NCBI GenBank assembly: GCA_903930515.1
Contig: CAIYYW010000357.1
Coordinates: 1-30,779, forward strand
Origin: an uncultured delta proteobacterium
GTDB taxonomy: Bacteria > RBG-13-61-14 > DRUE01
Direction of reading: 5' to 3'
Length of the DNA stretch: 30,779 nt
The position numbers were made by a program, and so were the translations under genes. This document shows, one piece after another, positions 3,390 to 30,395 of this stretch. Each line of letters starts with the position of its first letter. Positions within the stretch are counted from its first letter, which is position 1. The notes beneath the pieces are model-generated. The model ran no database searches, was not told where the DNA came from, and saw nothing but the letters and a program-made list of their open reading frames with translations.

Positions 3390-3454
3390 CGGTGGGGAAT
3401 AAGAGCAAGAATAAAAAGTGTAAATTGTAAAATGTAAAGGGTAAAAAATCTTTA

Positions 3455-3649: not shown

Positions 3650-3659
3650 AATAAAAAAT

Positions 3660-3688: not shown

Positions 3689-3700
3689 AAGGAATGACGG

Positions 3701-5946: not shown

Positions 5947-5961
5947 ATTGAGGAACAAACC

Positions 5962-6765: not shown

Positions 6766-6794
6766 TTGCATCGGTTCTGCACTTGTGCTACACT
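6766..6794 (+). promoter_or_regulatory. Promoter of the RHH/RelE toxin-antitoxin pair
   Basis: TTGCAT is followed after exactly 17 bases by TACACT, with TGC directly before the -10 box (extended -10). Transcription would begin near 6801, at the strong ribosome binding site AGGAGGTGAGG (6801-6811). The leader would therefore be only about 14 bases long. A start this close to the gene suits autorepression by the antitoxin. Confidence 0.5.
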
Positions 6795-6814
6795 TATTTC
6801 AGGAGGTGAGGAAA

Positions 6815-7051
6815 ATGCCGGCTAAAAATCCGAGATTGACTGCAGTGGTGGAAAAGCCGCTATATCGGTGGCTCAAGGAGAGCGCCCGGAGAAAAGGGAT
6901 TTCCTTGTCCCTGCGGTTGCGAGACTTGGTTAAGGAGGCTTATGAGGAAGAGGAGGATATCTTCTGGTCCAGAGAAGGGGAAGAGCGGCGAAAAACCTTT
7001 GATCCCAAGACCGCACTCACTCATGAGCAGGTTTTTGGCAAGAAGAAATGA
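6815..7051 (+). CDS. Ribbon-helix-helix antitoxin
   Basis: This 78-residue protein starts at ATG 6815 behind a near-perfect ribosome binding site (AGGAGGTGAGG). The pattern is that of a small RHH/CopG-like antitoxin: a short strand (RLTAVVEKPLYRWLKE), a helix, GISLSLRLRDLVKEAYEE, then an acidic linker and a C-terminal toxin-binding tail ending in ALTHEQVFGKK. The N-terminal part should dimerise on operator DNA and the tail should cover the toxin. The stop overlaps the toxin start (ATGA), so both proteins are made together. Antitoxin-toxin complexes of this type repress their own promoter, which fits the promoter at 6766-6794. Confidence 0.8.
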   Translation: MPAKNPRLTAVVEKPLYRWLKESARRKGISLSLRLRDLVKEAYEEEEDIFWSREGEERRKTFDPKTALTHEQVFGKKK

Positions 7052-7332
7052 AAAGATTTTCCCTGATTTATCACCCCCTGGTGCTGAGGGAAGATCGTGA
7101 TCGGCTGGGTGAATTTGAGTGGCAGAGAATCGGAAAAGCCATCGAACGGCGCTTGACCACGTTTCCGGAAAGGTTTGGCAAGCCTCTTCAAGGAGATCTT
7201 AAAGGGATGTGGTCGCTTCGGGTAGGTGATTGGAGGGTGATTTATGAAATCAGCGGTGAGCAAGTCAGGATTTTGAGGATCGGTCATCGCAGGGAGGTTT
7301 ACGGGATGAGGGGCCGGGAAATTAAAGATTAA
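7048..7332 (+). CDS. RelE/ParE-superfamily toxin
   Basis: This 94-residue basic protein is a RelE-family toxin. It shows the conserved core GMWSLRVGDWRVIYEI at 53-68 and the C-terminal VRILRIGHRREVY at 73-85. Candidate active-site residues are Arg58, Arg63, His80, Arg81, Arg82 and Tyr85. RelE toxins cut mRNA in the ribosomal A site, while ParE relatives poison gyrase. The basic and aromatic residues at the C-terminus favour the RelE type. It is translationally coupled to the antitoxin through a 4-base ATGA overlap. It looks full length and intact. Confidence 0.85.
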   Translation: MKRFSLIYHPLVLREDRDRLGEFEWQRIGKAIERRLTTFPERFGKPLQGDLKGMWSLRVGDWRVIYEISGEQVRILRIGHRREVYGMRGREIKD

Positions 7333-7386
7333 AATTTGGGAAAAGAGATTCTTGGTGAGATAAAAATATAGAAAAGGAGGTTTAAT

Positions 7387-7494
7387 ATGCCAGTCAAACA
7401 TCCAAAACCAGCTATTATTCATTCCAAAGAGAACATCCAATTATTAGAAAGAATTCCTTTGGAAAAAATTTATAAGACATCTGATTCTGAATAA
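7387..7494 (+). CDS. 35-residue small ORF between two toxin-antitoxin-type pairs
   Basis: The frame from ATG 7387 to TAA 7494 encodes 35 residues, starting MPVKHPKPAIIHSKENIQLL and ending KTSDSE. It has a strong ribosome binding site (AAAAGGAGG) at a good distance and is followed 20 bases later by the MNT gene. It is mildly basic with a short central helix. I know no family for it. It could be a leader peptide, a decayed antitoxin start or a real small protein of the module. The strong ribosome site is the main reason to list it. Confidence 0.45.
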   Translation: MPVKHPKPAIIHSKENIQLLERIPLEKIYKTSDSE

Positions 7495-7514
7495 AAAGGA
7501 TAGGAGGATAATTT

Positions 7515-7841
7515 ATGGTCCAAGATAAAACCATAAAGGAAGCCATCAAACGGCTCAGCAAAGCGGCTCCCGAGGCCATGATAATTCTATTCGGCTCTCG
7601 TGCGCGTGGGGAAGCCGGAGAGCGGAGCGATCTGGATTTACTGGTGGTGGAGCCGGAGGTGAAGGCGCGGAGGATGGAGATGGTGAGGCTGAGCGATGTG
7701 CTTCGGCCTTTGAAAATTCCGGTGGATATTTTGGTGACCAGTCGAAAGAATTTTGAGGAATGGTCCAAAATTCCGGGAACCGTGATTTACCGGGCCGCGA
7801 CCGAAGGAAAGGTGCTTTATGATCCAGAAAAAGCAGATTGA
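7515..7841 (+). CDS. MNT-type minimal nucleotidyltransferase, antitoxin of a HEPN/MNT pair
   Basis: This 108-residue protein is a polymerase-beta-like minimal nucleotidyltransferase. It has the signature FGSRARGEAGERSDLDLLVV at 26-45, with the metal-binding Asp39 and Asp41, and a third acidic residue Asp71 in VDILV. All key residues are intact. In HEPN/MNT modules this protein acts as antitoxin, in studied cases by adding AMP to a tyrosine of the HEPN toxin. AGGAGG upstream of 7515 supports the start. Its 3' end overlaps the HEPN gene by 23 bases, so the two are co-translated. Confidence 0.85.
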   Translation: MVQDKTIKEAIKRLSKAAPEAMIILFGSRARGEAGERSDLDLLVVEPEVKARRMEMVRLSDVLRPLKIPVDILVTSRKNFEEWSKIPGTVIYRAATEGKVLYDPEKAD

Positions 7842-8220
7842 ATTGTTATTTCTTAAAGCAGCTCAGGATGAATATATTCTTGATAAGACCCTTGATGATC
7901 CTGAGGCGCCGCTGGAGATTATCGGATTTCATGCCCAACAAGCCGCGGAAAAATTATTAAAGGCCATTCTGGTTGCAGGAGGGACGACTTATCCGCAGTC
8001 TCACCGGATTGCGGAGCTGATTGACTTGATCAAGGCTCAGGGCGTTAAGCTTCCTGAAAAATTTGAAGAGCTAAGGTATCTGACGCCATTTGCAGTGGAA
8101 TTTAGATATGATGTTTTGCCGGAGGAACCGGAAATGGAGTTGGACCGGGAGCAGGTAAGAGGATTAATCAAAGAATTGAAATCTTGGGCGGAAGATTTTG
8201 CTAAAGAAAAATATAAGTAG
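7819..8220 (+). CDS. HEPN-domain protein, toxin partner of the MNT protein
   Basis: This 133-residue all-helical protein has the HEPN pattern FHAQQAAEKLLKAILVAGG at 37-55, SHRIAELIDLI at 61-71, and a closing LTPFAVEFRYD at 88-98. HEPN proteins paired with MNT proteins are usually RNases or RNase-derived toxins. The classical R-x4-6-H catalytic motif is not visible here: Arg96 is followed by YDVLPEE without a histidine. It may therefore belong to the HEPN subgroup that lacks it, or have lost catalysis. The gene begins inside the end of the MNT gene (23-base overlap). The pair follows a RelE-type pair, making a stacked toxin-antitoxin island. Confidence 0.8.
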   Translation: MIQKKQIELLFLKAAQDEYILDKTLDDPEAPLEIIGFHAQQAAEKLLKAILVAGGTTYPQSHRIAELIDLIKAQGVKLPEKFEELRYLTPFAVEFRYDVLPEEPEMELDREQVRGLIKELKSWAEDFAKEKYK

Positions 8221-13634: not shown

Positions 13635-14717
13635 ATGAAGCGCAAAATGATTTTCGGTGGAAGTTTGATTGGGATCGTCATTTTGGCGACGATTTCGGTC
13701 GGTTGCGCCAGGAAAACCGAGGAATTAGGGGCGGTCCGGCAGGAATCGTCCACGGTTAAATTCAACGGCTACAAGCTGAGCGTGTTGGTGGACGCTTCTC
13801 CCGAGGAGCTGGAGAATTACCTGACGGATCCGGACAAGTTGAAGCAGGAATTGGGGAAGCTGATCAAGCTTGAGCGGCTGTCCGGCAAAAGATTTTCCCG
13901 GGTCGGAGACAGCGCGGATTACCAGTTCCGGGTATTGAATGTGGCGACCGTTCCCTACCGGATGACTATGATCCGATACCAGCCCTTGGATGAAATCTGG
14001 TATATGACCGAGACCAAGAACGAGTTTATAGTTTCGGTGTTGCGCTACCAGATGAAGCGGGTCAAGGACGGAACCATCCTGACCGTGCGTTTTGAATTGG
14101 AAGAGCCCCAGGACCCGTTCACCAAAGGGATTGACCGGGCGATCAATTTCCAGGAAAGCATTATCAAGGGAACCGAGCAGGGCACGGCGATGATCCAGGC
14201 ATATTTCAATAAAAATTTGACCGTGCCGGGGTTATTGGAAAAAGGACTGCGCGGGGAGTTTTATGTGTCCTTCTTCAGCTTCAACCGCCTGAGCGTTTTG
14301 GTCAACGCCCCTCCCCCAAAAGTACACCGATACCTGACCGACCCGGCGACCTGGAAAAAATGGGAAACCGAATACCAAGTCTATAATATGGGGCCTTGCC
14401 TGGTTGATCTCAAGGCCGGGTCCTGCCAGGCCAAAATCAATATCGTGGGCGTGGATTACACCCTGGATTTTTTCAGCGCCCAGCAAGTGCCTGGAAAATT
14501 TGTCTCCAGCTACTTTACCTCCCCGGTCATGGGACTGGGTTGGATTAGAACCTTCATCAACCCGGTGGATAAAGGCGCCGATCTCGGAATTGAATATATG
14601 GTCCAGATTTCACAAGCCAGCCCCGCGGGAACCCAGTTCCTGATCAACCTCTCCCAATTGCCCAAGATCATCGAAAAAATTATCCTGGACGCAAAGAACA
14701 ACTGCGAACTTCCGTAA
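13635..14717 (+). CDS. Lipoprotein with two tandem START/SRPBCC-like domains
   Basis: This 360-residue protein begins with a lipoprotein signal ending in the lipobox ISVGC (Cys24), so it should be anchored to a membrane by lipid. The rest splits into two similar halves, about 43-193 and 211-355. Each opens with the same wording: KLSVLVDASPEELENYLTDP (47-66) and RLSVLVNAPPPKVHRYLTDP (218-237). Opening strand, 'V-A-P--V--YLTDP' and a closing long helix are typical of SRPBCC/START-like hydrophobic-ligand pockets. The second half has two extra Cys (255 and 264). I infer it binds a lipid or other hydrophobic molecule in the envelope. It precedes an operon that starts with an SCP2-type lipid carrier, which fits. 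No specific ligand is visible. Confidence 0.6.
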   Translation: MKRKMIFGGSLIGIVILATISVGCARKTEELGAVRQESSTVKFNGYKLSVLVDASPEELENYLTDPDKLKQELGKLIKLERLSGKRFSRVGDSADYQFRVLNVATVPYRMTMIRYQPLDEIWYMTETKNEFIVSVLRYQMKRVKDGTILTVRFELEEPQDPFTKGIDRAINFQESIIKGTEQGTAMIQAYFNKNLTVPGLLEKGLRGEFYVSFFSFNRLSVLVNAPPPKVHRYLTDPATWKKWETEYQVYNMGPCLVDLKAGSCQAKINIVGVDYTLDFFSAQQVPGKFVSSYFTSPVMGLGWIRTFINPVDKGADLGIEYMVQISQASPAGTQFLINLSQLPKIIEKIILDAKNNCELP

Positions 14718-14855: not shown

Positions 14856-14884
14856 TTGACAAGGATGGAGGGGTTTGCTAAGTT
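14856..14884 (+). promoter_or_regulatory. Promoter of the SCP2-to-hydrolase operon
   Basis: A perfect TTGACA is followed after 17 bases by TAAGTT, with TGC directly before it (extended -10). Transcription would begin near 14891, leaving a leader of about 46 bases before the ribosome binding site AGGAGG and the ATG at 14937. It is the only good promoter seen before the eight-gene run to 23509. The rest of the 219-bp gap (14718-14936) shows nothing else I can support. Confidence 0.5.
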
Positions 14885-14936
14885 TGCGCTTGATCAATAA
14901 AATTGACACAAACCAAAAAACAGGAGGAAAGCAAGT

Positions 14937-15506
14937 ATGGATTCAAAGGTTCCGAAAAATGTGACGGTTGATGAGTTTTTTAAGGTCTATGTTCCCAAAC
15001 AATTCCAGGAAACCCTGGGCAATCTGGAAGTGTCGGCCATGGCCGGCAAGGAATTCACGGTGCAGTTCAATATTGACGACAAAAAATATTGCCTGCGGAT
15101 CAAGGACGGCAAGAACCTGGAAGTGATCCCGGGCGGGATTGACAAGGCCATGCTCGCGATCGGGATCAGCGAGGAATTCTGGAGGGACGCGGTCACGGGC
15201 AAAGCCGCGGGCGCAACCGACCAGTTTACGGATCCGCGCCAGGCGGCCAACCTTGATCGTTACAATACCCTGCTCTCCACCAAAGGGACCATGAATGTGG
15301 AGTTGTCGCAGCCGGACGGCAAGGTCGCGCCCTTGAAAATGGTGTTTAACGGCGAGTCCAGCCCTAATGTCACCATGCGCATCAGCCTTTCCGACTGGAT
15401 TGGGATGCAAAAGAAGGAAACCGACGGACAGGCCTTGTTTATGGCAGGCAAGATGCAGGTTGACGGCGATATGATGTTTTTGATTCAGTTGCAATCGCTG
15501 ATCTAG
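14937..15506 (+). CDS. SCP2-like sterol/lipid carrier domain protein
   Basis: This 189-residue protein has the features of an SCP2 (sterol carrier protein 2) domain. N-terminal helices are followed by strands (KEFTVQFNIDDKKYCLRIKD) and a DKAMLAIGISEEFWRDAVTG segment. The closing block DWIGMQKKETDGQALFMAGK, then MQVDGDMMFLIQL, is the family's hydrophobic-tunnel end. Such domains hold lipids, sterols or acyl-CoAs for enzymes. There is no signal peptide, so it acts in the cytoplasm. The insert between the two SCP2 halves makes it longer than the minimal 110-residue domain. CAGGAGG upstream gives a strong ribosome binding site. It is the first gene of a tight operon with acyl-CoA dehydrogenases, so it may present a hydrophobic acyl substrate to them. 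Confidence 0.7.
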   Translation: MDSKVPKNVTVDEFFKVYVPKQFQETLGNLEVSAMAGKEFTVQFNIDDKKYCLRIKDGKNLEVIPGGIDKAMLAIGISEEFWRDAVTGKAAGATDQFTDPRQAANLDRYNTLLSTKGTMNVELSQPDGKVAPLKMVFNGESSPNVTMRISLSDWIGMQKKETDGQALFMAGKMQVDGDMMFLIQLQSLI

Positions 15507-15562
15507 CCAAGGGTGGTCTGATCGGCCAAGATTTTAATCGTCTGATCCGGAAAGGAGCAGTT

Positions 15563-16879
15563 ATGTCCGGTCTGGAAATAAAAATCAAGGACTTCGCGCG
15601 CGCCCAGGGAGTTGAATTGGTGGGCGTTGCCGGGCCGGAACGACTGGACGGGCCGCCTTCGCTTGATCCCGCTTACACGCTGAGCGGGGCGCAATCCATA
15701 ATTTCCCTGGCCCTGCCTATGAAGGTTTCCGCCATCTACGATTTCCTGGGCAAGAAATCTCCGGCGCCGCATAATATGGATCAACTGCTCGGCAATCAAA
15801 AGATGCACCGGATCTGCAAGAGTCTGGAACAATACCTTCAATCGCTCGGTCCTCGGGCAAAAGCGGTCCCGCCCAACAACACCTACCGGAGATCGCCGGA
15901 TGTGTTCGCCACCCATCCGAGTTTTTCGCACCGGTTCGGGGCGATCGTCGCCGGGATCGCGGCGCAGGGCTGGAGCGGAAATGTGATGACCAGGGAATAC
16001 GGCGCGGCCGTCTATCTCGGGACCGTGGTGACCGACGCGGTCCTGGCCAGCGACCCGCTCCTGCCTCCGCGATATTTCATTGACAACTACTGTTACAAAT
16101 GCAAGCTCTGCGACAAGGTCTGCCCGTCCGGAATGTTCCAGGCAGAGGGCGAGGAATATGTGCTCCTGAACGGAGAGCTTCATCCGCGCGGAAAACGGGG
16201 GAGTATTGACCTGTGCAACATCTCCTGCTTCGGCCTGCATGGACTTTCGCGCGACCGGAAATGGACCAGTTGGGGCAGGCATTGGATCAGCGCCTGGATC
16301 GAGCATGAACCCGACCCGGCCAACAAAAGAAAAATCCGACAGGCCCTGCTGGCCAAGGGTTCCCGGACAGGCGACTCCACGCTCAGATACGATTTGATCC
16401 GGCGGCTGGGGAGCATGCTCTGGCCCGAGGATTGGATCAAAGCCATGTCCGGGCTGGAGAACCCGCCGCAGGACGAACTGGAGCGGAATAAGGTTCTGTC
16501 CGAATACGCGGAGAAGGTCGGGATCAAGGGACTCAAGGATTTCAATGTGATCACCTGCGGCCAGTGCGCGCTGGTGTGCGGGCCGAACCTGAAGGAGACC
16601 GGGGACCGGTATCACTGCCTGATCGAGTCGGGGTTGGTGGTTCCGGGACCGGAGGGGAGGATGGTGAACGCGGCCACATTTGAGCAAGCCCTGGAAATCC
16701 GCAAGCAATATCCGCAAAAGATCGGCAAGGCAGAGATGGGCAGAGACGCGCGGGCGGGAGCCAAGCTCTGGCACAAATTTTATTTCGGGATTGAACCGAA
16801 ATCCATCCTTCAAAACCTGCTTTACCGGCGCAAGCTGAAGAAAGCCGCGGCCAAAGCAGGCAAGTCTTTGCCAACCTGA
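15563..16879 (+). CDS. QueG/reductive-dehalogenase-like two-cluster Fe-S protein
   Basis: This 438-residue cytoplasmic protein has a QueG-like N-terminal half: VELVGVAGPERLDGPP at 18-32, then SGAQSIISLALPM at 41-53. A ferredoxin-like region follows, with CYKCKLCDKVCP at 177-188 (Cys177, 180, 183, 187) and CGQCALVCG at 332-340 (Cys332, 335, 339). Cys218 or Cys222 may complete the second site. QueG and reductive dehalogenases share this plan and use cobalamin plus two [4Fe-4S] clusters for one-electron reductions. It is longer than QueG and lacks a Tat signal, so it is neither a typical QueG nor a respiratory dehalogenase. AAGGAG at 15552-15557 supports the start. The next gene resembles a haloalkane dehalogenase. 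The true substrate is unknown, and it could also be only an electron carrier for the dehydrogenases. Confidence 0.65.
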   Translation: MSGLEIKIKDFARAQGVELVGVAGPERLDGPPSLDPAYTLSGAQSIISLALPMKVSAIYDFLGKKSPAPHNMDQLLGNQKMHRICKSLEQYLQSLGPRAKAVPPNNTYRRSPDVFATHPSFSHRFGAIVAGIAAQGWSGNVMTREYGAAVYLGTVVTDAVLASDPLLPPRYFIDNYCYKCKLCDKVCPSGMFQAEGEEYVLLNGELHPRGKRGSIDLCNISCFGLHGLSRDRKWTSWGRHWISAWIEHEPDPANKRKIRQALLAKGSRTGDSTLRYDLIRRLGSMLWPEDWIKAMSGLENPPQDELERNKVLSEYAEKVGIKGLKDFNVITCGQCALVCGPNLKETGDRYHCLIESGLVVPGPEGRMVNAATFEQALEIRKQYPQKIGKAEMGRDARAGAKLWHKFYFGIEPKSILQNLLYRRKLKKAAAKAGKSLPT

Positions 16880-16901
16880 TATAATAACCGGGGAGGTTAC
16901 C

Positions 16902-17819
16902 ATGCCCATTCTCAGGACTCCGGAGGAGCGGTTTTTAAATCTGCCGGGATTTCCGTTCAAGCCGAACTACACGGAAATTTTCGGGGCGCGCGTGCATTAT
17001 CTTGACGAGGGATCGGGCGAGCCGATCCTCTGTTTGCACGGCGAGCCGAGTTGGTCTTATCTTTACCGCAAGATGATCCCGGTCCTGGCGAAAAAATATC
17101 GCGCGCTCGCCCCTGATTTCATCGGGTTCGGGCGGTCGGACAAGTTCAGCGAGGTTTCCGATTACACCTATCAGATGCACCGCGATACCATCATCAAATT
17201 CATTGAGGCGATCAAGCTGGAGGGGATCACGCTGGTGGTTCAGGACTGGGGAGGGCTGATCGGACTCCGGGTGGCGACGATGCTCCCGGAGAAAATCGCC
17301 CGGCTGGTGATTATGAACACCGGGCTGCCGACCGGGGAGCACCCGATGCCGGAGCCGTTTATGAAATGGCGTAATTTCGTGGAGAAAACCCCGGACCTTC
17401 CGATTGGAATGATCTTCCGCAATTCCACCTTTTTCGGAAAACAAATTTCCGACCGGGTGATCGCGGGATACCAGGCGCCCTTCCCGGACAGCAGCTACCA
17501 GGCGGGCGCGCGGGCGTTTCCGCTGATGGTCCCGATCAAGTTGGATGATCCGGCCGCGGCGGAGCTGAGAAAAGCGCGGGACGGGATGATGAAATGGAAT
17601 AAGCCGGCGTTGGTGATGTTCTCGGACCAGGACCCGATTACCCGGGGCGCGGACAAACTTTTTCGGGCCTGGATCCCCACGGCCAAGGATCAGCCGGAGA
17701 TTGTGATCAAGGACGCGGGACATTTTTTGCAGGAAGATAAAGGCGAGGAAATCGCGGGGCATATTTTGGAATTCATTGAGCGGACGCCGCTTAGGCGGAA
17801 AGGGAAAAGGAATGAATGA
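16902..17819 (+). CDS. Haloalkane-dehalogenase-like alpha/beta hydrolase
   Basis: This 305-residue protein aligns well with the subfamily I haloalkane dehalogenase DhlA. The oxyanion segment LHGEPSWSYLYRKMIP is at 45-60 and the nucleophile elbow VVQDWGG at 112-118, with Asp115 and halide-binding Trp116. The acid is Asp244 in SDQDP and the base is His274 in DAGHFLQED. APFPDSSYQAG at 192-202 in the cap is also shared. The catalytic triad is complete. By hand alignment the second halide-binding Trp of DhlA (Trp175) falls on Met170, and the Asn used by other subfamilies is Glu48 here. Dehalogenase activity is therefore not certain, and another C-X or ester hydrolysis is possible. No signal peptide is seen. 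It starts 22 bases after the Fe-S gene and overlaps the next gene by 8 bases. Confidence 0.75.
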   Translation: MPILRTPEERFLNLPGFPFKPNYTEIFGARVHYLDEGSGEPILCLHGEPSWSYLYRKMIPVLAKKYRALAPDFIGFGRSDKFSEVSDYTYQMHRDTIIKFIEAIKLEGITLVVQDWGGLIGLRVATMLPEKIARLVIMNTGLPTGEHPMPEPFMKWRNFVEKTPDLPIGMIFRNSTFFGKQISDRVIAGYQAPFPDSSYQAGARAFPLMVPIKLDDPAAAELRKARDGMMKWNKPALVMFSDQDPITRGADKLFRAWIPTAKDQPEIVIKDAGHFLQEDKGEEIAGHILEFIERTPLRRKGKRNE

Positions 17820-19263
17820 CTATCTGAATGTTGAGATCAGCCGGAGGAGCCTGTTGGAAATGGCTCCCCGTCTGAAAATCCTCTCTCCGTTGATGCCGGA
17901 TTATGTTGCCGCCCTGGAAGAGTGGCAGGCCAAGGCCAGGGAATATGCGGAGAAATATATCCGGCCGAACGCCCTGGCGATTGATCTCAAATGCTCAAAA
18001 GACCCGCGTTATGTTGACTGGGACCTGATTAAGAAATCCACCCCTTACGGTTTCTTGTCGCTCCTGGTTCCCAAAAGCCTGGGGGGCGGCGGGCAGATGT
18101 GCACGGCGTTCGCGATTGTGATGGAAGAGCTTTGCGCGGGATGCGCCGGGATCGCCAATATTTTCGGCGCCAACGCCCTGGGCGTTTCCGGCATCCTGCT
18201 GGGCATGGATTTTTATCATTATGACCGGGCGCTTTTTGAACTGGCCGAGGGAGACCGCAAGGGCGAGCCGGTGATTTTCGCCGCGGCGATCACCGAGCCG
18301 TTGGCCGGGTCGGATGTTGAGGATCCGGTTTACTTGAAGAGCGCGAAGCTGATGACCGAGCTTAAGCCGGTTAAAGGCGGATACCTGGTGAACGGCCGCA
18401 AGGTGTTCATCAGCAACGGGTCCATCGCCAAATACACCACCCTGATCGCGCCGACCGACAAGAAGCGGCCGGTGGAAAGCATGAGCGCGGTCCTGGTCAA
18501 GCAGGGCGACCAGGGATTTTCAATCGGAAGGGTTGAGGAAAAAATGGGAATGAAGGGATGCCCGGCCGCGGAGCAGGTGTTTGAGGACTGCTTCGTTCCC
18601 AAAGAAAATCTGATTGGCGAGGAAGGAATAGCGGTGAATTTTATTGAGGTTGTGCTCGGGGCGTCGCGCGGGCCGGTCGGGGCGATCGCAACCGGCACGG
18701 CGCGCGGAGCGTTTGAGCGGGTCGTGGAGTTCGCGAAAAATCACAAGGCGGGCGGCAGAAGATTGATTGACCAGCAATGGGTGCAGATCAAGCTCGCGGA
18801 GATGGCCCGCAAGATTCATCTTGCCCGGCAGGCATATCTGGACAGCACGATGAGCTTTGATTTCACCGGAACCCCCAAATTGATGAGCACCCTTACCACC
18901 AAAATGCTCCTGGATCTCACCCCGCGTTGGGTTAGAAAAACCGCTCCCTTTACCAAGTTCCTCCGTTCAAAAACCGTCCAGAAAATAAAGGAGCGGATGG
19001 TTGAGAAAGAACTCAAACCCCAAGACCAGCGCGACATCCAGGTTTATTCCTCGCTCGCCAAAGTGACCGGGAGCGATGTGGCGATGGAAGTGGCTTATCA
19101 GGCCTTGCAGATCGCGGGCGCGTCCTCCTCTCTCCATCGCTATGAGCTGGAAAAAATTTACCGCGACGCCAAGCTGACCCAGATTTACGAGGGGACCAAC
19201 CAGTTGAACCGGCACAATATGTTCATAAACTTTTTCCCGGAGGAGGCGGCCCATGCCGAATGA
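17812..19263 (+). CDS. Acyl-CoA dehydrogenase, catalytically competent subunit
   Basis: This 483-residue flavoprotein is an acyl-CoA dehydrogenase. It has the FAD-contact segment AAAITEPLAGSDVE at 157-170, the FISNG strand at 199-203, and the C-terminal RDAKLTQIYEGTNQLNR with the catalytic base Glu460. It should remove two hydrogens from the alpha-beta bond of an acyl-CoA and pass electrons to a carrier. It is about 100 residues longer than typical members. The excess lies mainly in an insert of about 60 basic residues at about 349-410 (LTPRWVRKTAPFTKFLRSKT and onward) between the C-terminal helices. Start 17812 is chosen because AGGG lies 7 bases before it. The gene overlaps the hydrolase stop by 8 bases and the next dehydrogenase by 11, so all three are co-translated. 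Confidence 0.9.
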   Translation: MNDYLNVEISRRSLLEMAPRLKILSPLMPDYVAALEEWQAKAREYAEKYIRPNALAIDLKCSKDPRYVDWDLIKKSTPYGFLSLLVPKSLGGGGQMCTAFAIVMEELCAGCAGIANIFGANALGVSGILLGMDFYHYDRALFELAEGDRKGEPVIFAAAITEPLAGSDVEDPVYLKSAKLMTELKPVKGGYLVNGRKVFISNGSIAKYTTLIAPTDKKRPVESMSAVLVKQGDQGFSIGRVEEKMGMKGCPAAEQVFEDCFVPKENLIGEEGIAVNFIEVVLGASRGPVGAIATGTARGAFERVVEFAKNHKAGGRRLIDQQWVQIKLAEMARKIHLARQAYLDSTMSFDFTGTPKLMSTLTTKMLLDLTPRWVRKTAPFTKFLRSKTVQKIKERMVEKELKPQDQRDIQVYSSLAKVTGSDVAMEVAYQALQIAGASSSLHRYELEKIYRDAKLTQIYEGTNQLNRHNMFINFFPEEAAHAE

Positions 19264-20356
19264 AACGAACCGATATCGGGAGTTGGAACTGAGCGCGTCC
19301 AAATTCGCGGCCCGCTGGATTGAGCCGTTCGCCGCGGAGCTTGACCACACCGGCCCGGCTTTCCCAACGCAAGCTTTTGCAGCCGGAATTGAAGCCGGGT
19401 TTGACCGGCTGCTTTTGCCGGAAAGCGCGGGCGGGTCTGGATTTGAGCTGTCTGATTTTTGCGCCCTGATCAGGACCCTGGCCCAAACCTGCGCCGGGCA
19501 CGCGATGGTCTTCGGCGTGCATATCGCCCTGGTCAAATCTCTCTCTGAACTCGCAACTGAAAATTCCCGCGTTTTGCTGGAACGGGTCCTTGCCTCCGGC
19601 CGGCCCGTCGGGATTGCGTTGCCGGATATGATTTCGCTGGACCGGATTGAAACCGAGCTCAAGATTGATCCGGCCGCGAAAATTTCCGGCCCGGCCGGGC
19701 TTGCGATCAATCTTGCTCCAAATGGTTTTATCATTGCCTTTGCCCAAAATGACAAAGGCGTTCCGGCCGCGCTGATGATTGAAAGCGATGCGAAAGATCT
19801 TTTGGCCGGCCCGGAATTGGCCATCGGACTGCGGGCGATGCCGGCCGCGGAACTCAAGCTTGAGGGAAAAAGTATCGGCCGCGCCAACATCGTCTGCGAA
19901 TCGGAACAGGCGTTAAAATTATTCCGGAGCATCATCGTAAATGTTTGCTTCGCGGTTTCCGCCTCCAGCCTGGGCACGATGGAAAAGGCGTCACAGAAAG
20001 CCTTCGCCTACGCCAACGAGCGCTACCAGGGATCCAGGATGATCATTGACCATTCACATTTGAAAAATATTCTCGGAGCAATTTCCGCGAAAGCGGCAGC
20101 CGGACGGGGAGCGGTTTTCAACGCCGCTTCGGATCCGGCCGATTTTTTGAGCGCTCTCCAAACCAAGGTCCGGGTCACCGATTCCGCGGTTCAGGTCTGT
20201 GCCGATGCCGTGCAAATTTTGGGCGGATACGGATATATGCGGGAATACGGCCTGGAAAAAATGATGCGCGACTCGGCATTGCTCTCGCTGCTTCCGCTTT
20301 CCAACGCTAGGGCCGAGCTGGCAATTGCCGATGCGGAAAAGAAAAAATTGGGATGA
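19253..20356 (+). CDS. Acyl-CoA dehydrogenase-like subunit lacking the catalytic glutamate
   Basis: This 367-residue protein has the acyl-CoA dehydrogenase helical domains. These include an N-terminal helix bundle, LLLPESAGGSGFELSDF at 53-69, a C-terminal bundle with AVQILGGYGYMREYGLEKMM at 319-338, then RDSALLSLLPLSNARAEL. The tract that normally reads IYEGT is LLPLS here, so Pro348 stands where the catalytic Glu should be. The middle FAD-contact motif TEPxxGSD is also missing, replaced by ALPDMISLD. It is therefore unlikely to be active alone and is probably the partner subunit of the dehydrogenase encoded just upstream, with an 11-base gene overlap. In the steroid-degrading mycobacterial dehydrogenases, two unlike subunits share active sites, which is a fitting precedent. 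GGAGGAGG supports the start. Confidence 0.8.
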   Translation: MPNETNRYRELELSASKFAARWIEPFAAELDHTGPAFPTQAFAAGIEAGFDRLLLPESAGGSGFELSDFCALIRTLAQTCAGHAMVFGVHIALVKSLSELATENSRVLLERVLASGRPVGIALPDMISLDRIETELKIDPAAKISGPAGLAINLAPNGFIIAFAQNDKGVPAALMIESDAKDLLAGPELAIGLRAMPAAELKLEGKSIGRANIVCESEQALKLFRSIIVNVCFAVSASSLGTMEKASQKAFAYANERYQGSRMIIDHSHLKNILGAISAKAAAGRGAVFNAASDPADFLSALQTKVRVTDSAVQVCADAVQILGGYGYMREYGLEKMMRDSALLSLLPLSNARAELAIADAEKKKLG

Positions 20357-20372
20357 CCAAAAGAGGGGCAAG

Positions 20373-21137
20373 ATGAAAGGGGATTTTTTCAAGGGGATCA
20401 AGCAATGGGAATTTGAAGCGCAGGGACGGAAAGGCATGCTGCCGGTATTTTATTATGACAATTCCTCAATGAGCGCGATTTACACGGCCAAGACCTCCGA
20501 GGCGAGGAAGCTGCTGCCGCTTAAGGAAATGAACCCGGTGGAATTTTTACCGGGAAGGTGCCTGGTGGCGTTCACCGCCTTTGAATACCGCAAGACCGAC
20601 ATTGACCCCTACAACGAATTCAGCATCGCCTTCCTGATTTCCTACAACCGGGCGCAAATCCCCGGCCTGACCGCGTTGAAGGGATTGTTAGCCAACACCT
20701 TCAGCGCCTATGTCTGGCAATTGCCGGTGACCACCGAGATCGCCCGGATCGGCGGGGTGGAGCTTTTCGGGTATCCGAAATTCCTCGCCGGGATCAAGTT
20801 CAACCAGGGCAAGGAATGGCGGGAATGCGAACTCTCCGAGGGCAACAGAAAAATCCTCAACTTCCGGGGCAAGGTCCTGCCCGGAAGCCCGGCAAAAGTA
20901 ACCCGCTATGTCACTTACTCGGTCCTGGACCGGATTCCGCTGGCGGCGAATATTTATACCAATCCGCTGGAATTCAAACAGAGCATCAGCGGCGACGACG
21001 CCGCGGTTGAATTGGGGGATCATCAGATCGCCGAGACCCTGAAACAGATCGGCCTGAGCAAGAAGCCGCTCGTTTACCAGTTCTCGCCGCTGACCGAGGT
21101 GATCCTGTTTGGAGGGAGAAATTTAATTGACCACTGA
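20373..21137 (+). CDS. Acetoacetate-decarboxylase-like (ADC superfamily) protein
   Basis: This 254-residue protein belongs to the ADC superfamily. Its best mark is VELFGYPKFLAGI at 129-141, matching the RELSAYPKKLGYP segment of clostridial acetoacetate decarboxylase. Lys136 aligns with the Schiff-base lysine. The neighbouring lysine that lowers its pKa in true decarboxylases is Phe137 here, so plain acetoacetate decarboxylation is doubtful. Other superfamily members act as aldolase-dehydratases or on other keto acids. Start 20373 is preferred over in-frame codons upstream because AGGGG precedes it and the overlap with the dehydrogenase is avoided. The gap to that gene is 16 bases. It is part of the operon and may act on a 3-keto or 2-keto intermediate. 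Confidence 0.7.
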   Translation: MKGDFFKGIKQWEFEAQGRKGMLPVFYYDNSSMSAIYTAKTSEARKLLPLKEMNPVEFLPGRCLVAFTAFEYRKTDIDPYNEFSIAFLISYNRAQIPGLTALKGLLANTFSAYVWQLPVTTEIARIGGVELFGYPKFLAGIKFNQGKEWRECELSEGNRKILNFRGKVLPGSPAKVTRYVTYSVLDRIPLAANIYTNPLEFKQSISGDDAAVELGDHQIAETLKQIGLSKKPLVYQFSPLTEVILFGGRNLIDH

Positions 21138-21156
21138 AAATTTGCGGGAGAATAAA

Positions 21157-22263
21157 ATGAGCGGAAACGATCCCTATTTAAAAATCTATGAAAAAATTGA
21201 ACGCGGCCCCCTGGGCGCGCCCAAGGCGGGCGGAGAAGTTTCCCAGGCCTTCCTGGCTTTTTTAAAACTGGTCTATACCCCGGATCAAGCCCAAGTGGTT
21301 CAGCAACTGGAGGTTCCTTACAGGTTTAAAAAGATTCCGGAGATAGCCCAGGCCGCGGGCAGGGATGAGGCCGCGGTGAAAAGCGCGCTTGACGCCCTGG
21401 CCGGAAAATGCGCGATCATCGGGATCAATGATATGTATTGCCTGCCGATGATTCCGATGCTTCTGAACAACCATCAGTTTTATGCCCGGCTCCAGCCGGA
21501 AGACCTGGAGGCCGCGAAATTATACCAGCAGTTTTTTATCAAGGAAGGCTTTTACAAATATTATGAAAGTTCGGAAAAAGGCACGCCGACTATGCGGGTG
21601 ATCCCGGTGCGGCGCTCGTTGGAGCCGAGCCAGAAAATTCTGGATACCGAAGAGGCGCATAAAATCATTCAATCCGCCAATCACCTGGCCCTGGTTCCCT
21701 GCCCGTGCCGGACCCGGACGGAAAAACTCGGGATCCGGGAATGCAAAGATAAATACCCGATCGGGTTCTGCATTATGACCAATGCCTCGGCGCTGGTTTT
21801 TGAAAAAGCCGGGTTGGGAAAAAGGGTGACGCCGGAGCAGGCTGCAAAATATTTTGACGAGATGCAGGACCTGGGCCTGGTCGGGATCACGGAAAACTAT
21901 CAGGACAAAAATCACGATGTGATCTGCTTATGCTGTGATTGCTGCTGCTCGCAGGTGCGGGGAAGGACCAGGTGGGAAAACCCGCTGGCCGTCGCCCCGG
22001 CCAACTTCGTTCCGGAAGCGAACGAGGATTGCATCCTGTGCGGGGATTGCGAGGAAAGATGTTTCTTTTCCGCGATCACTCTGGATGAGAAACTGGGGAG
22101 GGCCGTGGCGGACCCGAATAAATGCCTGGGTTGCGGAGTCTGCGCCATCGGCTGCCCGCAATCCGCGCTAAGACTCAAAAGGTTGGAACGACACACTCCG
22201 TTCGCGGGCCCGCGCGAGCTTTATTCAAAGGTTGCCGAAGAAAATAAGCGCGGGAAAAATTGA
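21157..22263 (+). CDS. Cysteine-rich ferredoxin-type protein with N-terminal helix-turn-helix-like domain
   Basis: This 368-residue protein joins three parts. Residues about 28-100 look like a winged-helix domain (KIPEIAQAAGRDEAAVKSAL, then a short helix and a wing). The middle has unusual cysteine groups: CPC at 182-184, Cys196, Cys205, and CLCCDCCC at 257-264. The C-terminus holds two classical [4Fe-4S] motifs, CILCGDCEERC at 292-302 and CLGCGVCAIGCP at 323-334. The C-terminal clusters suit electron transfer. The cysteine-rich middle could hold another cluster or metal. GGGAG at 21146-21150 supports the start at 21157. The gene lies in the acyl-CoA dehydrogenase operon and could accept electrons from it. 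An HTH-like front could also regulate the operon by redox state. I cannot tell which. Confidence 0.75.
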   Translation: MSGNDPYLKIYEKIERGPLGAPKAGGEVSQAFLAFLKLVYTPDQAQVVQQLEVPYRFKKIPEIAQAAGRDEAAVKSALDALAGKCAIIGINDMYCLPMIPMLLNNHQFYARLQPEDLEAAKLYQQFFIKEGFYKYYESSEKGTPTMRVIPVRRSLEPSQKILDTEEAHKIIQSANHLALVPCPCRTRTEKLGIRECKDKYPIGFCIMTNASALVFEKAGLGKRVTPEQAAKYFDEMQDLGLVGITENYQDKNHDVICLCCDCCCSQVRGRTRWENPLAVAPANFVPEANEDCILCGDCEERCFFSAITLDEKLGRAVADPNKCLGCGVCAIGCPQSALRLKRLERHTPFAGPRELYSKVAEENKRGKN

Positions 22264-22291
22264 GCCGCGCTGCTTAAAAGGGGGGAACAAA

Positions 22292-23509
22292 ATGAGAAAT
22301 GCGAAAAGGATTTCGGGTTCAATCATAATTTTCTTGCTGAGCCTGTTCTTGGCGGATCAAGCTTTCGCGCTCAAGACCTTTGCCCCGGATGGGCCGTATC
22401 CGGTGGGAGTCAGGATAGATCGTCTGCAACTCAAAGACCGGACCGCGCCGGTGATGGTCTGGTATCCCGCGGAAACAAATCCCGGCCCGGTTTATAAATA
22501 CACCGACAAGCTGGAAGGGGCGGCCCGGCTTAACGCCCCGGTGAAAAAATCCGGCGCGCCGTATCCGCTTCTTTTGTTCTCGCACGGGATGGGAGCGTGC
22601 GCCTGCCAGTCGGTTTATTACACGGAGAATTTGGCCAGCTTCGGATATGTGGTGGTGGCGCCGGATCATAAGGACTCGGCGATGTGCCATATTGACGGGC
22701 CTCCCGACATTACGGTCGGCCAGATCGCCAAGGCCGCGCTCAAGAGCGGGGGCGACCTTTCCCAAACCGTGTTCGGCCTGTTCCGGTCCAAGTTTGAGGA
22801 ACTCGGTTATGATTTTTCCTACCGGCCGATTGAAGCCAAGGCCGCGATTGATCTGGCGCTGGCCTGGAACCGGGATCGCAGCAGCCCCTTCTTCGGGATT
22901 ATGGACCCGGACCGGATCGGCGCCACCGGACATTCGCTGGGGGGATATACCACGATGATGGTCGGCGGCGTGCCCTTCCATTGTGAGGGATCCGCGCCCG
23001 GCCCCGAGCAATGCCAAACGGACAAGATCAGCCTGACTGATAATATCAATCCCTGCTGTATGAAATATCTCCAGGGGAAGGACCCCTTTGCGGCCCGCGA
23101 TCCCAGGGTCAAGGCGATGCTCCCGCTCGGACCCGCGGTTTTTTTCCCCAAGCTGGAACAAGCCGCGAAAGAAATTACCATCCCGGTAATGATCATCACC
23201 GGAGACAATCACAAGATGGAAGTGCCGTGGGAACGGATCCGGACTTTTTATCAGAACGCGCCCGCGCCCAAATATTTGATCCGGCTCAGGAAGACCGACC
23301 ATCTCACCATCTCCGACCTGACCCTGTCCTCCAGTTTTCTGACCCGGCTGCTCCTGCCGGGGTTCCGAGATCACTACCGGGAAAAGGCACAAGCCGCCAA
23401 GGACTACTCGGTTGCTTTTTTCAACAAGTATTTAAAGGCCGACAATTCTCAATCCCAAGTCTTGGAAAAGGCGTCCAACCCGGTGGTGGAGTTGTGGTTT
23501 GAGAAATGA
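22292..23509 (+). CDS. Exported alpha/beta hydrolase, PAF-acetylhydrolase/dienelactone-hydrolase-like
   Basis: This 405-residue protein has an N-terminal signal peptide (IIIFLLSLFLADQAFA, cleavage after Ala26), so it is exported. The hydrolase fold begins with PYPVGVRIDRLQL and VMVWYPA, a start typical of PAF-acetylhydrolase-like enzymes. The nucleophile Ser215 is in GHSLGG, the likely acid is Asp305 in ITGDNHK, and the base is His337 in KTDHLT. LFSHGMG at 95-101 forms the oxyanion region. Several Cys (103, 105, 132, 231, 241, 255, 256) may form disulfides. It should hydrolyse an ester or thioester outside the cytoplasm. Start 22292 is set by AAGGGGGG a few bases upstream and by the signal peptide. 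It is the last gene of the tight operon. It could release the substrate from an ester before uptake. Confidence 0.75.
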   Translation: MRNAKRISGSIIIFLLSLFLADQAFALKTFAPDGPYPVGVRIDRLQLKDRTAPVMVWYPAETNPGPVYKYTDKLEGAARLNAPVKKSGAPYPLLLFSHGMGACACQSVYYTENLASFGYVVVAPDHKDSAMCHIDGPPDITVGQIAKAALKSGGDLSQTVFGLFRSKFEELGYDFSYRPIEAKAAIDLALAWNRDRSSPFFGIMDPDRIGATGHSLGGYTTMMVGGVPFHCEGSAPGPEQCQTDKISLTDNINPCCMKYLQGKDPFAARDPRVKAMLPLGPAVFFPKLEQAAKEITIPVMIITGDNHKMEVPWERIRTFYQNAPAPKYLIRLRKTDHLTISDLTLSSSFLTRLLLPGFRDHYREKAQAAKDYSVAFFNKYLKADNSQSQVLEKASNPVVELWFEK

Positions 23510-23520
23510 AAGGAGCTGTC

Positions 23521-23646
23521 AGGGGATCGGGAAAGAGATGGCTGATCGGCTGGGGCAAGCCGAACAGGAAGAGATGTCTCCGATCCCCTCGGACTTGCGG
23601 ATGAGCCGAAGATAATCTTTAATAACCTCCAAGGGTAATTGGAGGT
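23521..23646 (+). promoter_or_regulatory. Structured leader with ribosome-site-burying hairpin before the dehydratase-like gene
   Basis: Between 23510 and 23655 several perfect inverted pairs occur. AGGGGATCGG (23521-23530) pairs with CCGATCCCCT (23580-23589) and encloses a TCGGCT/AGCCGA hairpin (23546-23551, 23558-23563). A second AGCCGA at 23604-23609 could compete for the same TCGGCT. The last hairpin ACCTCCAA-GGGTAA-TTGGAGGT (23625-23646) buries the ribosome binding site GGAGG, 10 bases before the ATG at 23656. This is what a translational switch would look like. It fits no riboswitch class that I recognise. Confidence 0.5.
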
Positions 23647-23655
23647 AAAAAAACA

Positions 23656-25125
23656 ATGGCGTTAAAAACCGCGTCCGAATATCTTGAGAGCCTGCGCCGG
23701 ATGAAGCTAAACCTTTTCCTGTTGGGAGAAAAGGTGGAGGATTGGGTTGAACATCCGATCATCCGGCCCTCAATCAACTCGGTGGCAATGACTTACAAGC
23801 TGGCCCAAAAGCCCGAGACCAGGGAACTCGCAATCACCGGCTCAACCTTGATCAAGGAACCGATCAACCGGTTCAACTCCCTGTTCCAGAGCGCGGCGGA
23901 ACTGGTGCTCAAGGTCAAGCTCCAGCGGGAAATGGGACGGAGGACCGGGGCCTGTTTTCAAAGATGCGTGGGCATGGACGCCATCAACGCGGTCTTCAGC
24001 GTCACCTTTGAAATGGACCGCAAGCATCAGACCGACTATCACCAACGCTTCCAGGACTGGCTAAAATATGTCCAGCAAAACGACCTGATGGTCCAGGGAG
24101 CGATGACCGATGTCAAGGGGGACCGCGGGCTTAGCCCCTCGGAGCAGAAAGACCCGGACCTGTTCGTGCATATCGTTGACCGGTCCAATCAGGGAATCGT
24201 GATCCGGGGAGCCAAGGCCAGCCAGACCGGCGCGGCCAACTCGCACGAAATCCTGGTTATGCCCACCCTGCGTCTTTCCGAAAAGGAAAAAGAATTCGCT
24301 CTCTGCTGCGCCACTCCCACGGACGCCCGGGGCATTCATCTGGTTTATGGCCGCCAGCCCAACGACACCCGCAAGCTGGAAAAGGCGGACCTGGATTTGG
24401 GCAATTTGGGGTTCGGCGGTCAGGAAACCCTGACCATTTTTGACAATGTTTTTATCCCGTGGGAGAGGGTGTTTATGGACGGGGAAACGGATTTTTCCAG
24501 CCCCCTGGTGGAGCGGTTCGCGTCATATCACCGCCAGAGTTACGGCGGGTGCAAGTCCGGGATCGGCGATGTTTTGATCGGAGCCGCGGCATCAATGGCC
24601 GATTACAACGGGGTGGCAAAAGCCTCTCATATCCGGGACAAGCTCGCGGAAATGGTCCATTTGGTGGAAACCATTTATTCCTGCGGACTGGCCTGCTCCT
24701 ATGAAGGGGAAAAAACCGCAGCCGGTAATTTCCAGTGCAACATCCTGCTCGCCAATGTCTGCAAGCTCAATGTCACCCGGCTACCCTATGAACTATGCCG
24801 GCTCGCGGAAGACATTGCCGGCGGACTCTTAGTGACCATGCCCTCGGAAAAAGACCTCAGGAACCCGGAGGTGGGCAGGCTGGTGGAAAAATATCTGCGC
24901 GGAAAGGCCGAAGTCAGCACCGAGGCCCGGATGCGGATGCTATCCCTGATCCATTCTATGACCATGGGAACCACCGCGCCCAGCTACCGGACCGAGTCAA
25001 TGCACGGAGCCGGCTCCCCCCAGGCACAAAAAATTATGATTGAGCGGCTGGCAAACCTGGATGCAAGAAAAAAACTCGCCCGAAAAATCGCCGGGATTGA
25101 CCAGAGAGAGGATGTGCTGGAATGA
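23656..25125 (+). CDS. 4-hydroxybutyryl-CoA dehydratase/vinylacetyl-CoA isomerase-family enzyme
   Basis: This 489-residue protein is of the HpaB/4-hydroxybutyryl-CoA dehydratase flavoprotein superfamily and has the full length of the clostridial enzyme. The four [4Fe-4S] ligands of 4-hydroxybutyryl-CoA dehydratase are present with the same spacing: Cys100 and Cys104 in GACFQRCVGMDAINA, and His292 and Cys299 in YHRQSYGGCKSG. True hydroxylases of the superfamily lack these, so a dehydratase-like radical mechanism is favoured. Such enzymes dehydrate 4-hydroxybutyryl-CoA to crotonyl-CoA using FAD and the cluster and are oxygen-sensitive, supporting an anaerobic host. Substrate relatives are possible. 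The ribosome binding site GGAGG sits in a hairpin, so expression may be controlled. The gene is 146 bases after the hydrolase and is the last plus-strand gene of the block. Confidence 0.8.
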   Translation: MALKTASEYLESLRRMKLNLFLLGEKVEDWVEHPIIRPSINSVAMTYKLAQKPETRELAITGSTLIKEPINRFNSLFQSAAELVLKVKLQREMGRRTGACFQRCVGMDAINAVFSVTFEMDRKHQTDYHQRFQDWLKYVQQNDLMVQGAMTDVKGDRGLSPSEQKDPDLFVHIVDRSNQGIVIRGAKASQTGAANSHEILVMPTLRLSEKEKEFALCCATPTDARGIHLVYGRQPNDTRKLEKADLDLGNLGFGGQETLTIFDNVFIPWERVFMDGETDFSSPLVERFASYHRQSYGGCKSGIGDVLIGAAASMADYNGVAKASHIRDKLAEMVHLVETIYSCGLACSYEGEKTAAGNFQCNILLANVCKLNVTRLPYELCRLAEDIAGGLLVTMPSEKDLRNPEVGRLVEKYLRGKAEVSTEARMRMLSLIHSMTMGTTAPSYRTESMHGAGSPQAQKIMIERLANLDARKKLARKIAGIDQREDVLE

Positions 25126-28958: not shown

Positions 28959-29732
28959 ATGGCAGCCAAGAAGCTAGCAAGAGCCAAGCGGGCATTAAAG
29001 GCATTTGTTGATCTTCGCCAAGAAACACTCTCTCATGCAGAAACATTACTTGCCGATTTCAACAAAAGCGGCTTGATAAAGTCCTTTCATAAATATAGGG
29101 AAAAGAATTTAGCAAAGGCGAAGAAAGCTCTTCAAATCTTTACAGATAATAAGCTCGGCCATTTCGATATCTTCAGAAAGGCAGGTTTTTCCGCAGATGA
29201 AGATCCCCTGAGCGATGCTATAGCCGCTCTGCTAGACCCGAAAGAATCCCATCAACTTGGCACATTGCCTCTAAAGAAGTTCTTAGAATCGATATGTTAC
29301 AAGGCTCCTGCCCGGATTAAGGGAATTATTTCTCATCTTGATAAATCTGCAGAATCTATCCATATTCATAAAAGAATATACTACCCAGGTGATGAAGAAG
29401 GATCAATGCCAGATATTGAGATTGCTTCAAGATATTTTATTATTTTCATAGAGCACAAAGCGCCTGGGGGCAGAGAAAATCCAGGCAGGAAATGGCAGAC
29501 GGAGAAATATTGGGGTGTTTTGGAGAAAAGGGCTGGAGATGAAGGCATACCTAAGAATCGTATCGTGGGAATTTACCTAACTCCTGATGGGAGCCCAGCA
29601 AGAAGCAAGCATTTTATACCTGTATCGTTCCATCAATTTGCGCGATCAATTATAGAAACTATTGATAGAGTGCCAGATTGTTCCTGTGCACATTCAATAA
29701 GAGCTTTTATGGATTTCTATTCTTGGCTTTAA
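28959..29732 (+). CDS. PD-(D/E)XK nuclease-superfamily protein with duplicated N-terminus
   Basis: This 257-residue protein has a PD-(D/E)XK-type core: MPDIEI at 150-155, FIIFIEHKA at 160-168, and a downstream WQTEKYW (179-185) whose Gln and Tyr suit the QxxxY tail of this fold. Asp152, Glu165 and Lys167 are the candidate metal and catalytic residues, as in the PDDEXK_4 family. The N-terminal 75 residues contain two similar units, LARAKRALKAFVD at 6-18 and LAKAKKALQIFTD at 51-63, which look like an ancient duplication. Nucleases of this fold are common in defence or repair systems. AAAGG at 28947-28951 supports the start. The orphan gene at 29748 follows after 15 bases. Confidence 0.6.
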   Translation: MAAKKLARAKRALKAFVDLRQETLSHAETLLADFNKSGLIKSFHKYREKNLAKAKKALQIFTDNKLGHFDIFRKAGFSADEDPLSDAIAALLDPKESHQLGTLPLKKFLESICYKAPARIKGIISHLDKSAESIHIHKRIYYPGDEEGSMPDIEIASRYFIIFIEHKAPGGRENPGRKWQTEKYWGVLEKRAGDEGIPKNRIVGIYLTPDGSPARSKHFIPVSFHQFARSIIETIDRVPDCSCAHSIRAFMDFYSWL

Positions 29733-29747
29733 AAAGGGAGGAATAAT

Positions 29748-30395
29748 ATGCAAAATGTCAAATGGAGTAGCGGTGACAAATATCTTGATTTCTTAATCCA
29801 AAATTACAAGAGCATCAAAGCATTTGAGGAGATTGTGCGCTATGCTAAAAATCTTTTGGCTTCTTATGTTGATAGAGAAGCTACTGAAGCGATTAAAGAT
29901 TTAAAATATCGATATTTTGAAAGGAATGGACTCAAAGTTGATGAGGATAATGGGATTATATTTTGGTATGATCCTGATTTTACTGAATGGGATCAAGATT
30001 TAAAAAAAGGCAAAGGACCAGTTATTCAATATGAATCTGAGCAGGTGGATATATGGAAATGGATTGAATCGGAAGATCAGGATGAGGCACCATATTTATA
30101 TTGTTTAGTAGATGTTTCTGGTATTAAGAAAATAAAAAATAAAAACTTATATAATCATGAATGGGCGCAATTATTGAATAGGGATGCAAAAATATTAAGT
30201 AAAAAGGGAATATCTATTCAAGAGGAAATATCTTGGGGTAATTTGTTGGCCTACTGGATTCTTGATAAGGAAATAACGATGGAGAAACTGGCAGATCGGG
30301 AGCAATTCCGTAAAGCAATTCAGCGAGCTGTAAGGAATTTCACGGATGCGCTTCTCCCAATTTTGCGAAAAGGGCAGAAAATTTCAAAAGATTAA
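29748..30395 (+). CDS. Orphan protein downstream of the nuclease-like gene
   Basis: This 215-residue soluble protein is not recognised. It has an acidic, Trp/Tyr-rich middle (IIFWYDPDFTEWDQDLKKGK, EQVDIWKWIESEDQDEAPYL) and a helical C-terminus with EEISWGNLLAYWILDKEITM, then FRKAIQRAVRNFTDAL. It is very AT-rich, unlike most of the window. GGGAGG at 29736-29741 gives a strong ribosome binding site 15 bases after the nuclease-like stop, so both are probably translated from one mRNA. It may be a partner or inhibitor of that protein; this is inferred from position only. Confidence 0.55.
   Translation: MQNVKWSSGDKYLDFLIQNYKSIKAFEEIVRYAKNLLASYVDREATEAIKDLKYRYFERNGLKVDEDNGIIFWYDPDFTEWDQDLKKGKGPVIQYESEQVDIWKWIESEDQDEAPYLYCLVDVSGIKKIKNKNLYNHEWAQLLNRDAKILSKKGISIQEEISWGNLLAYWILDKEITMEKLADREQFRKAIQRAVRNFTDALLPILRKGQKISKD

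Follow-up and report, generated by a model that had tools for sequence, protein, structure and literature searches.

A lineage-specific candidate catabolic operon with an active/inactive acyl-CoA dehydrogenase pair in an uncultured delta proteobacterium

The eight tightly packed genes described here are best read as a catabolic operon that is specific to its lineage, has a core that recurs elsewhere, and does not amount to a conserved, undescribed pathway. The part that recurs is an SCP2 lipid carrier together with a paired acyl-CoA dehydrogenase (ACAD), one subunit of which has the catalytic glutamate and one of which does not; SCP2 together with a QueG-like protein is not the recurring link. 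Our preferred reading, to which we give about even credence, is that the products of this operon, in an anaerobe, bind an acyl-CoA that is bulky and hydrophobic and begin to oxidize it.

RESULTS

Source and layout of the gene run

The window, that is, the whole stretch of 30,779 nucleotides that was analyzed, is contig C357 of a 3.65-Mb genome present as 401 contigs and 93% complete. The nearest record among the named genome contigs scanned was CAIUDS010000478.1, from a same-genus "uncultured delta proteobacterium" bin of Alinen sediments. Comparisons were made across three genomes of the phylum, namely, the window's own genome (G000), a member of the same genus (G001, 87% complete), and a member of the same order (G002). 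Mis-binning of the contig was judged unlikely because five of its genes have orthologues (57 to 81%) in the two same-phylum relatives. No COX1 was found in any of the three phylum genomes, with the same search positive in 8 of 14 control genomes, and from this result the host is apparently an oxygen-independent anaerobe.

Eight intact genes, all on the plus strand, occupy positions 14937 to 23509 in the order SCP2, QueG-like protein (QueGL), haloalkane-dehalogenase-like hydrolase (HLD), ACD1, ACD2, acetoacetate-decarboxylase-family protein (ADC), Fe-S protein, and exported PAF-acetylhydrolase-like (PAF-AH-like) hydrolase (Table 1). Neighboring genes overlap or lie close together (about −11 to +56 nt), and most starts are preceded by a Shine-Dalgarno-like sequence. 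For ACD1, the Fe-S protein, and the PAF-AH-like hydrolase, the likely true starts are those listed in Table 1, the Pfam-listed frames beginning at 17776, 21127, and 22232, respectively. All of the genes named in the earlier note were recovered, and each family was recognized by Pfam or NCBIfam, QueGL only distantly. The tight packing behind a promoter-like site was likewise confirmed, as were the START lipoprotein gene upstream (gap of 219 nt) and the 4-hydroxybutyryl-CoA-dehydratase-type gene (HBD) downstream (structured gap of 146 nt). No CoA ligase, hydratase, or thiolase and no later beta-oxidation enzyme was found in the run, which therefore cannot be a complete pathway; the remainder must be encoded elsewhere in the genome. 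A literature search for the gene combination returned no matching description.

Table 1. Features of the gene run and its flanks (window coordinates)
Feature	Coordinates	Strand	Basis
START/Polyketide_cyc2-like lipoprotein, two domains	13635..14717	+	Pfam PF10604/PF08327 (Polyketide_cyc2/AHSA1)
Promoter-like site TTGACA-N17-TAAGTT	14856..14884	+	Sequence match
SCP2-domain lipid carrier, first in run	14937..15506	+	PF02036, 57 bits
QueGL, distant QueG/RdhA-like Fe-S protein, two Cys clusters	15563..16879	+	Profile scores
HLD-I type haloalkane-dehalogenase-like hydrolase (HLD)	16902..17819	+	PRK00870, 390 bits (subfamily cut-off, 265)
Acyl-CoA dehydrogenase, predicted catalytic subunit (ACD1)	17812..19263	+	Pfam; Glu kept in IYEGTNQLNR
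Acyl-CoA dehydrogenase-like subunit without catalytic Glu (ACD2)	19253..20356	+	Pfam; residue alignment
Acetoacetate-decarboxylase-family protein (ADC)	20325..21137	+	PF06314, 55 bits
Fe-S protein	21157..22263	+	Pfam Fer4, motifs; open frame from 21127
Exported PAF-acetylhydrolase-like alpha/beta hydrolase	22292..23509	+	PF03403 (PAF-AH_p_II); open frame from 22232
Structured intergenic leader	23510..23655	+	Fold z = −4.3 versus shuffles; inverted repeats
HBD, 4-hydroxybutyryl-CoA dehydratase/vinylacetyl-CoA isomerase type, HpaB fold	23656..25125	+	1u8v, 653 bits

The promoter-like site is one of two in the window that fit an exact TTGACA, a spacer of 16 to 18 nt, and TANNNT. A consensus promoter scanner made no call at this site; the weak sites that it reported somewhat exceeded those in shuffled sequences (12 versus 6.5 ± 2.6). 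The gap before HBD contains nested inverted repeats, with perfect pairing of 23521-23530 with 23580-23589, and its last hairpin (8 bp, ACCTCCAA/TTGGAGGT) occludes the Shine-Dalgarno sequence (ribosome-binding site) of HBD. As judged from this predicted folding, the segment could be a regulatory leader of HBD. It had no Rfam match at gathering scores, and a comparable structure was not visible upstream of the G002 HBD orthologue.

Other parts of the window hold further gene sets. To the left of the run is a sugar-acid catabolic set (1603 to 6720) of a radical SAM gene and, all named by inspection, KDPG-aldolase-like, sugar-kinase-like, 2-hydroxyacid-dehydrogenase-like, and SDR genes, followed by two small toxin-antitoxin-like pairs (6785 to 8220), one RelE-like (by inspection) and the other a nucleotidyltransferase-like gene with HEPN (PF05168). 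At 28959 to 30395, a PD-(D/E)XK nuclease-family gene (PF14281) and its neighbor have a third-position GC of 0.29 to 0.34, below most of the window.

An active/inactive acyl-CoA dehydrogenase pair

In the residue alignment of the two adjacent dehydrogenases, ACD2 reads LLPLSNAR where ACD1 has IYEGTNQL, and the alternative glutamate position, that of isovaleryl-CoA and long-chain dehydrogenases, is also not Glu in ACD2, for which no middle-domain match was obtained in Pfam. The same pattern was observed at G000:C338, G001:C690 (with an acyl-CoA-synthetase-like frame after the pair), G002:C33, and G002:C129, and an inactive-type subunit is likewise encoded at G002:C93; where the glutamate would stand, the second subunits have P, F, A, D, or L. 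The assignment of ACD1/ACD2 as a putative active/inactive pair is a new observation here. In steroid dehydrogenases, the subunits come from adjacent genes and only one has the active glutamate (PMC8399759). Because the same adjacent, one-glutamate architecture is described there, we infer that ACD1 and ACD2 form a heteromeric complex of that kind. ACADs are very numerous in the window's own genome, so their presence within an operon is less telling.

SCP2 and the paired dehydrogenase as a recurring module

The SCP2 protein exceeded the Pfam PF02036 cut-off (57 versus 21.3 bits), the match spanning its C-terminal part only. With this protein as the query, relatives were found in 5 of 386 sampled genomes. 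One of them, G332 of another phylum, has the order SCP2-ACDa-ACDb, and its two dehydrogenases share 52% and 51% identity with the G002:C129 pair. Within the taxonomic order of G332 (loci L128 to L151), SCP2 was present in 24 of the 82 genomes searched and was followed directly 3′ on the same strand by ACDa in 22 of the 24; the start of ACDb was also visible in the short flank in at least 12 of those genomes, and D or L replaces the catalytic glutamate in the ACDa sequences checked. Six of the 24 SCP2-bearing genomes are near-identical genus mates, and thus the independent cases are fewer than 24; G002 and the two families concerned are clearly separate from one another. The position of SCP2 directly before an active/inactive-type pair in this order of another phylum is a second new observation. 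Since SCP2 stands near an ACAD pair in the window and in G002, as it does in 22 of the 24 SCP2-bearing genomes of that order, it was concluded that SCP2 travels with a paired ACAD. The window ACD1/ACD2 are only 23 to 32% identical to the SCP2-linked pairs of G002:C129 and the other phylum and hence represent a different ACAD subgroup, so the combination may have arisen more than once and, on these sequence identities, the link in the window may be a parallel case.

The second lipid-binding fold is the START lipoprotein, which has a signal peptide with the lipobox SVGC. At least five paralogues were found in the window's own genome, and the family, which is expanded in the lineage, possibly handles envelope lipids. 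In its own genome and in G002, paralogues occur in tandem and adjoin ABC_sub_bind (PF04392)-type proteins; paralogue loci are L065 (8467 to 11032), L067 (427 to 3517), and L125 (10567 to 16280).

Conservation of the neighborhood

In G002, about 4 kb separates the orthologues of SCP2 (66%) and QueGL (70%); the genes run SCP2-second QueGL-ACDa-ACDb-QueGL, and a TetR gene is upstream. The best G002 relatives of HBD (57%), the Fe-S protein (64%), HLD (63%), and ACD1 (47%) stand singly on four other contigs. The G001 QueGL orthologue (81%) has a pyridine-nucleotide oxidoreductase and sulfatases among its neighbors, and no relative of SCP2, HLD, the Fe-S protein, HBD, or the START lipoprotein closer than about 40% was found in G001, where, given its incompleteness, a gap could have swallowed the operon. 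From the scattered G002 relatives and the solitary G001 QueGL, it was deduced that the run as a whole is specific to this genome among the genomes compared. The earlier note had looked to conserved gene order around SCP2 and QueGL as the sign of a unit and to scattered homologues as the sign against it. The two do stand with an ACAD pair in G002. Scatter is largely what was observed for HLD, the Fe-S protein, HBD, and ACD1 and also for QueGL, whose neighbors in G001 are quite different.

That neither the order nor the genus keeps the gene content together counts against our main reading and favors a loose accessory operon, in which ordinary beta-oxidation and ester-hydrolysis genes were assembled by chance in the genus, with no dedicated pathway or special substrate. 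The heavy expansion of the ACAD, Fe-S protein, and START lipoprotein families in the lineage points the same way. We nevertheless consider such a chance assembly less likely than our main reading, as G002 keeps SCP2, QueGL, and the ACAD pair together, the link between SCP2 and an ACAD pair is widespread in another phylum, and the glutamate-less paired subunit speaks for a bulky substrate.

A more specific possibility is the anaerobic breakdown of the side chain of a steroid, hopanoid, or other polycyclic terpenoid, with SCP2 and the START lipoprotein handling the insoluble substrate. Two lipid-binding folds and active/inactive pairing like that of steroid ACADs speak for it, ACD2 is weakly similar to IpdE2 (3.5e-9), and a thiolase resembling lipid-transfer thiolases precedes another ACAD pair in G001 (L077). 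The scores are, however, all far under the steroid-family cut-offs (36.6 versus 450 bits for ACD2 against IpdE2), no steroid-specific family exceeded its cut-off anywhere in the run, and ACAD pairing does not require a steroid substrate; this assignment was therefore deemed improbable.

The QueG-like and Fe-S proteins

QueGL scored 31.5 bits against QueG (TIGR00276; equivalog cut-off, 200) and 32.5 bits against RdhA (TIGR02486; subfamily cut-off, 160), and with about 32 bits to both it can be only a distant relative. Profile matches were to QueG 5d6s (1.9e-7) and to PceA-type chains (3.6e-7 to 4.1e-6). The Cys sets CYKCKLCDKVC and one containing CGQCALVC are kept in six relatives, and QueGL is probably corrinoid-type. 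Neither a TAT signal nor an adjoining membrane-anchor gene was seen. The structure predicted from a two-sequence alignment (pLDDT 35.5) was too poor for fold reading. The family is rare, occurring in 7 of 386 genomes at 1e-25 and in 6 with a profile at 1e-50, a few best candidates per genome being scored. Relatives adjoin an acyl-CoA-synthetase-like gene at L013 (own genome) and L014, and one at L030 has thiolase and enoyl-CoA hydratase genes nearby. Three QueG-like genes stand in tandem in G034, an unrelated genome (L027, 1 to 3773), where they follow a gene for a relative of the window's Fe-S protein.

The Fe-S protein comprises an N-terminal helical region, CPCR...C...C, CCDCCC, and two C-terminal [4Fe-4S] motifs and is a probable electron carrier; its single-sequence structure prediction (pLDDT 37.7) was also too poor for fold reading. 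Relatives adjoin a molybdopterin oxidoreductase (G026), a 2-hydroxyglutaryl-CoA-dehydratase-type subunit (G088), and an enoyl-CoA-hydratase-like gene (G173, by inspection). The neighbors of QueGL and of the Fe-S protein fit electron transfer in CoA-linked anaerobic metabolism and fix no substrate.

HLD, ADC, PAF-AH-like hydrolase, and HBD

Alignment of HLD with 4mj3 and 6f9o showed an intact catalytic pentad (an Asp nucleophile followed by Trp, a second Trp, an Asp acid, and a His base). The halogenated substrate suggested in the earlier note found nothing in its favor beyond these residues, and dehalogenation of a halogenated lipid by a hydrolytic dehalogenase with a reductive-dehalogenase-like corrinoid protein is given almost no credence, since the weak RdhA match lies at 32 bits against a cut-off of 160, neither a TAT signal nor an adjoining membrane-anchor gene was seen for QueGL, and the HLD orthologue (alone in G002) and the QueGL orthologue (in G001) stand away from any such partner.

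In ADC, the YPK lysine, which we take to be the Schiff-base residue, is kept in all five aligned members (the window protein and four relatives), and the next residue is Phe. The residue after this lysine is important for decarboxylation in acetoacetate decarboxylase, and decarboxylation by ADC is therefore doubtful. A search of PDB gave no match for ADC. The PAF-AH-like hydrolase has a signal peptide and the nucleophile motif GHSLGG. HBD aligned to 1u8v keeps CFQRC and HRQSYGGCK, a pattern of three Cys and one His, residues which we take to be the Fe-S ligands. No 4-hydroxybutyrate pathway genes (CoA-transferase or dehydrogenase) were recognized in the window or, by inspection, beside the G002 HBD orthologue.

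DISCUSSION

Of the earlier proposal that the genes serve binding and anaerobic oxidation of a lipid acyl-CoA, the operon-like unit, the acyl-CoA chemistry, the two lipid-binding folds, and the anaerobic host (no COX1 match) all stood, and the idea of a single pathway conserved in full was not supported. The preferred reading, a lineage-specific operon for a bulky hydrophobic acyl-CoA, can be set out as follows. The exported PAF-AH-like hydrolase would act extracellularly, splitting an ester to free its acid, and SCP2 would present the water-insoluble thioester to a heteromer of ACD1 and ACD2, which, with Glu in ACD1 only, would create the alpha,beta double bond. The Fe-S protein would pass electrons, and QueGL may perform, or feed, a low-potential reductive step. 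HLD, ADC, and HBD may work on side intermediates. The sequences themselves show the gene content, its order and packing, the residue patterns, and the repeated occurrence of SCP2 with ACAD pairs; from these we infer the roles, the complex, the substrate class, and the electron flow, and the QueGL, HLD, ADC, and HBD steps would be add-ons.

In the most far-reaching form of this reading, the substrate would be a bulky acid, polycyclic or isoprenoid, handled without oxygen. A new corrinoid/Fe-S family with kinship to QueG and RdhA would reduce the SCP2-held, CoA-bound lipid beside a two-subunit ACAD; we see only a slim chance that this form is correct. If the proposed reading holds, the active/inactive ACAD design of steroid degraders would also serve anaerobes of little-known phyla, and the ACAD pair with the SCP2 carrier gene would be a cassette kept across phyla and a searchable genomic marker for bulky-lipid breakdown in anoxic sediment. 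The rare QueG/RdhA-like family would be placed in a lipid setting that permits reaction tests.

Comparison with known systems

QueGL appears to have in common with QueG and RdhA/PceA a glycine-rich region, a C-x2-C-x2-C-x3-C set, and a second Cys group, with matches of 1e-7 to 1e-5. It differs from both in its scores below the cut-offs, its lack of a TAT signal, and its lipid-metabolism neighbors, and it forms a separate family. HLD can be aligned over its full length with the HLD-I enzymes 4mj3, 6f9o, and DhlA (1b6g), all catalytic residues being kept, and differs in its location in an acyl-CoA operon and in having a dehalogenase activity that is predicted only. HBD matches 4-hydroxybutyryl-CoA dehydratase (1u8v) and vinylacetyl-CoA isomerase (6vjr) over the full length, with CFQRC and HRQSYGGC common to all. 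ADC exceeds the Pfam cut-off of the acetoacetate decarboxylase family (PF06314) and has its YPK lysine but differs in the Phe that follows. Like the heteromeric steroid ACADs ChsE4/5, ChsE1/2, Scd1AB, and IpdE1-IpdE2 (PMC8399759), a type in which an alpha2beta2 complex has FAD at its interface, ACD1 and ACD2 are encoded by adjacent genes and have a single catalytic glutamate between them; unlike these, they score far under the family cut-offs, belong to an apparent anaerobe, and have SCP2 and a QueG-like protein encoded upstream.
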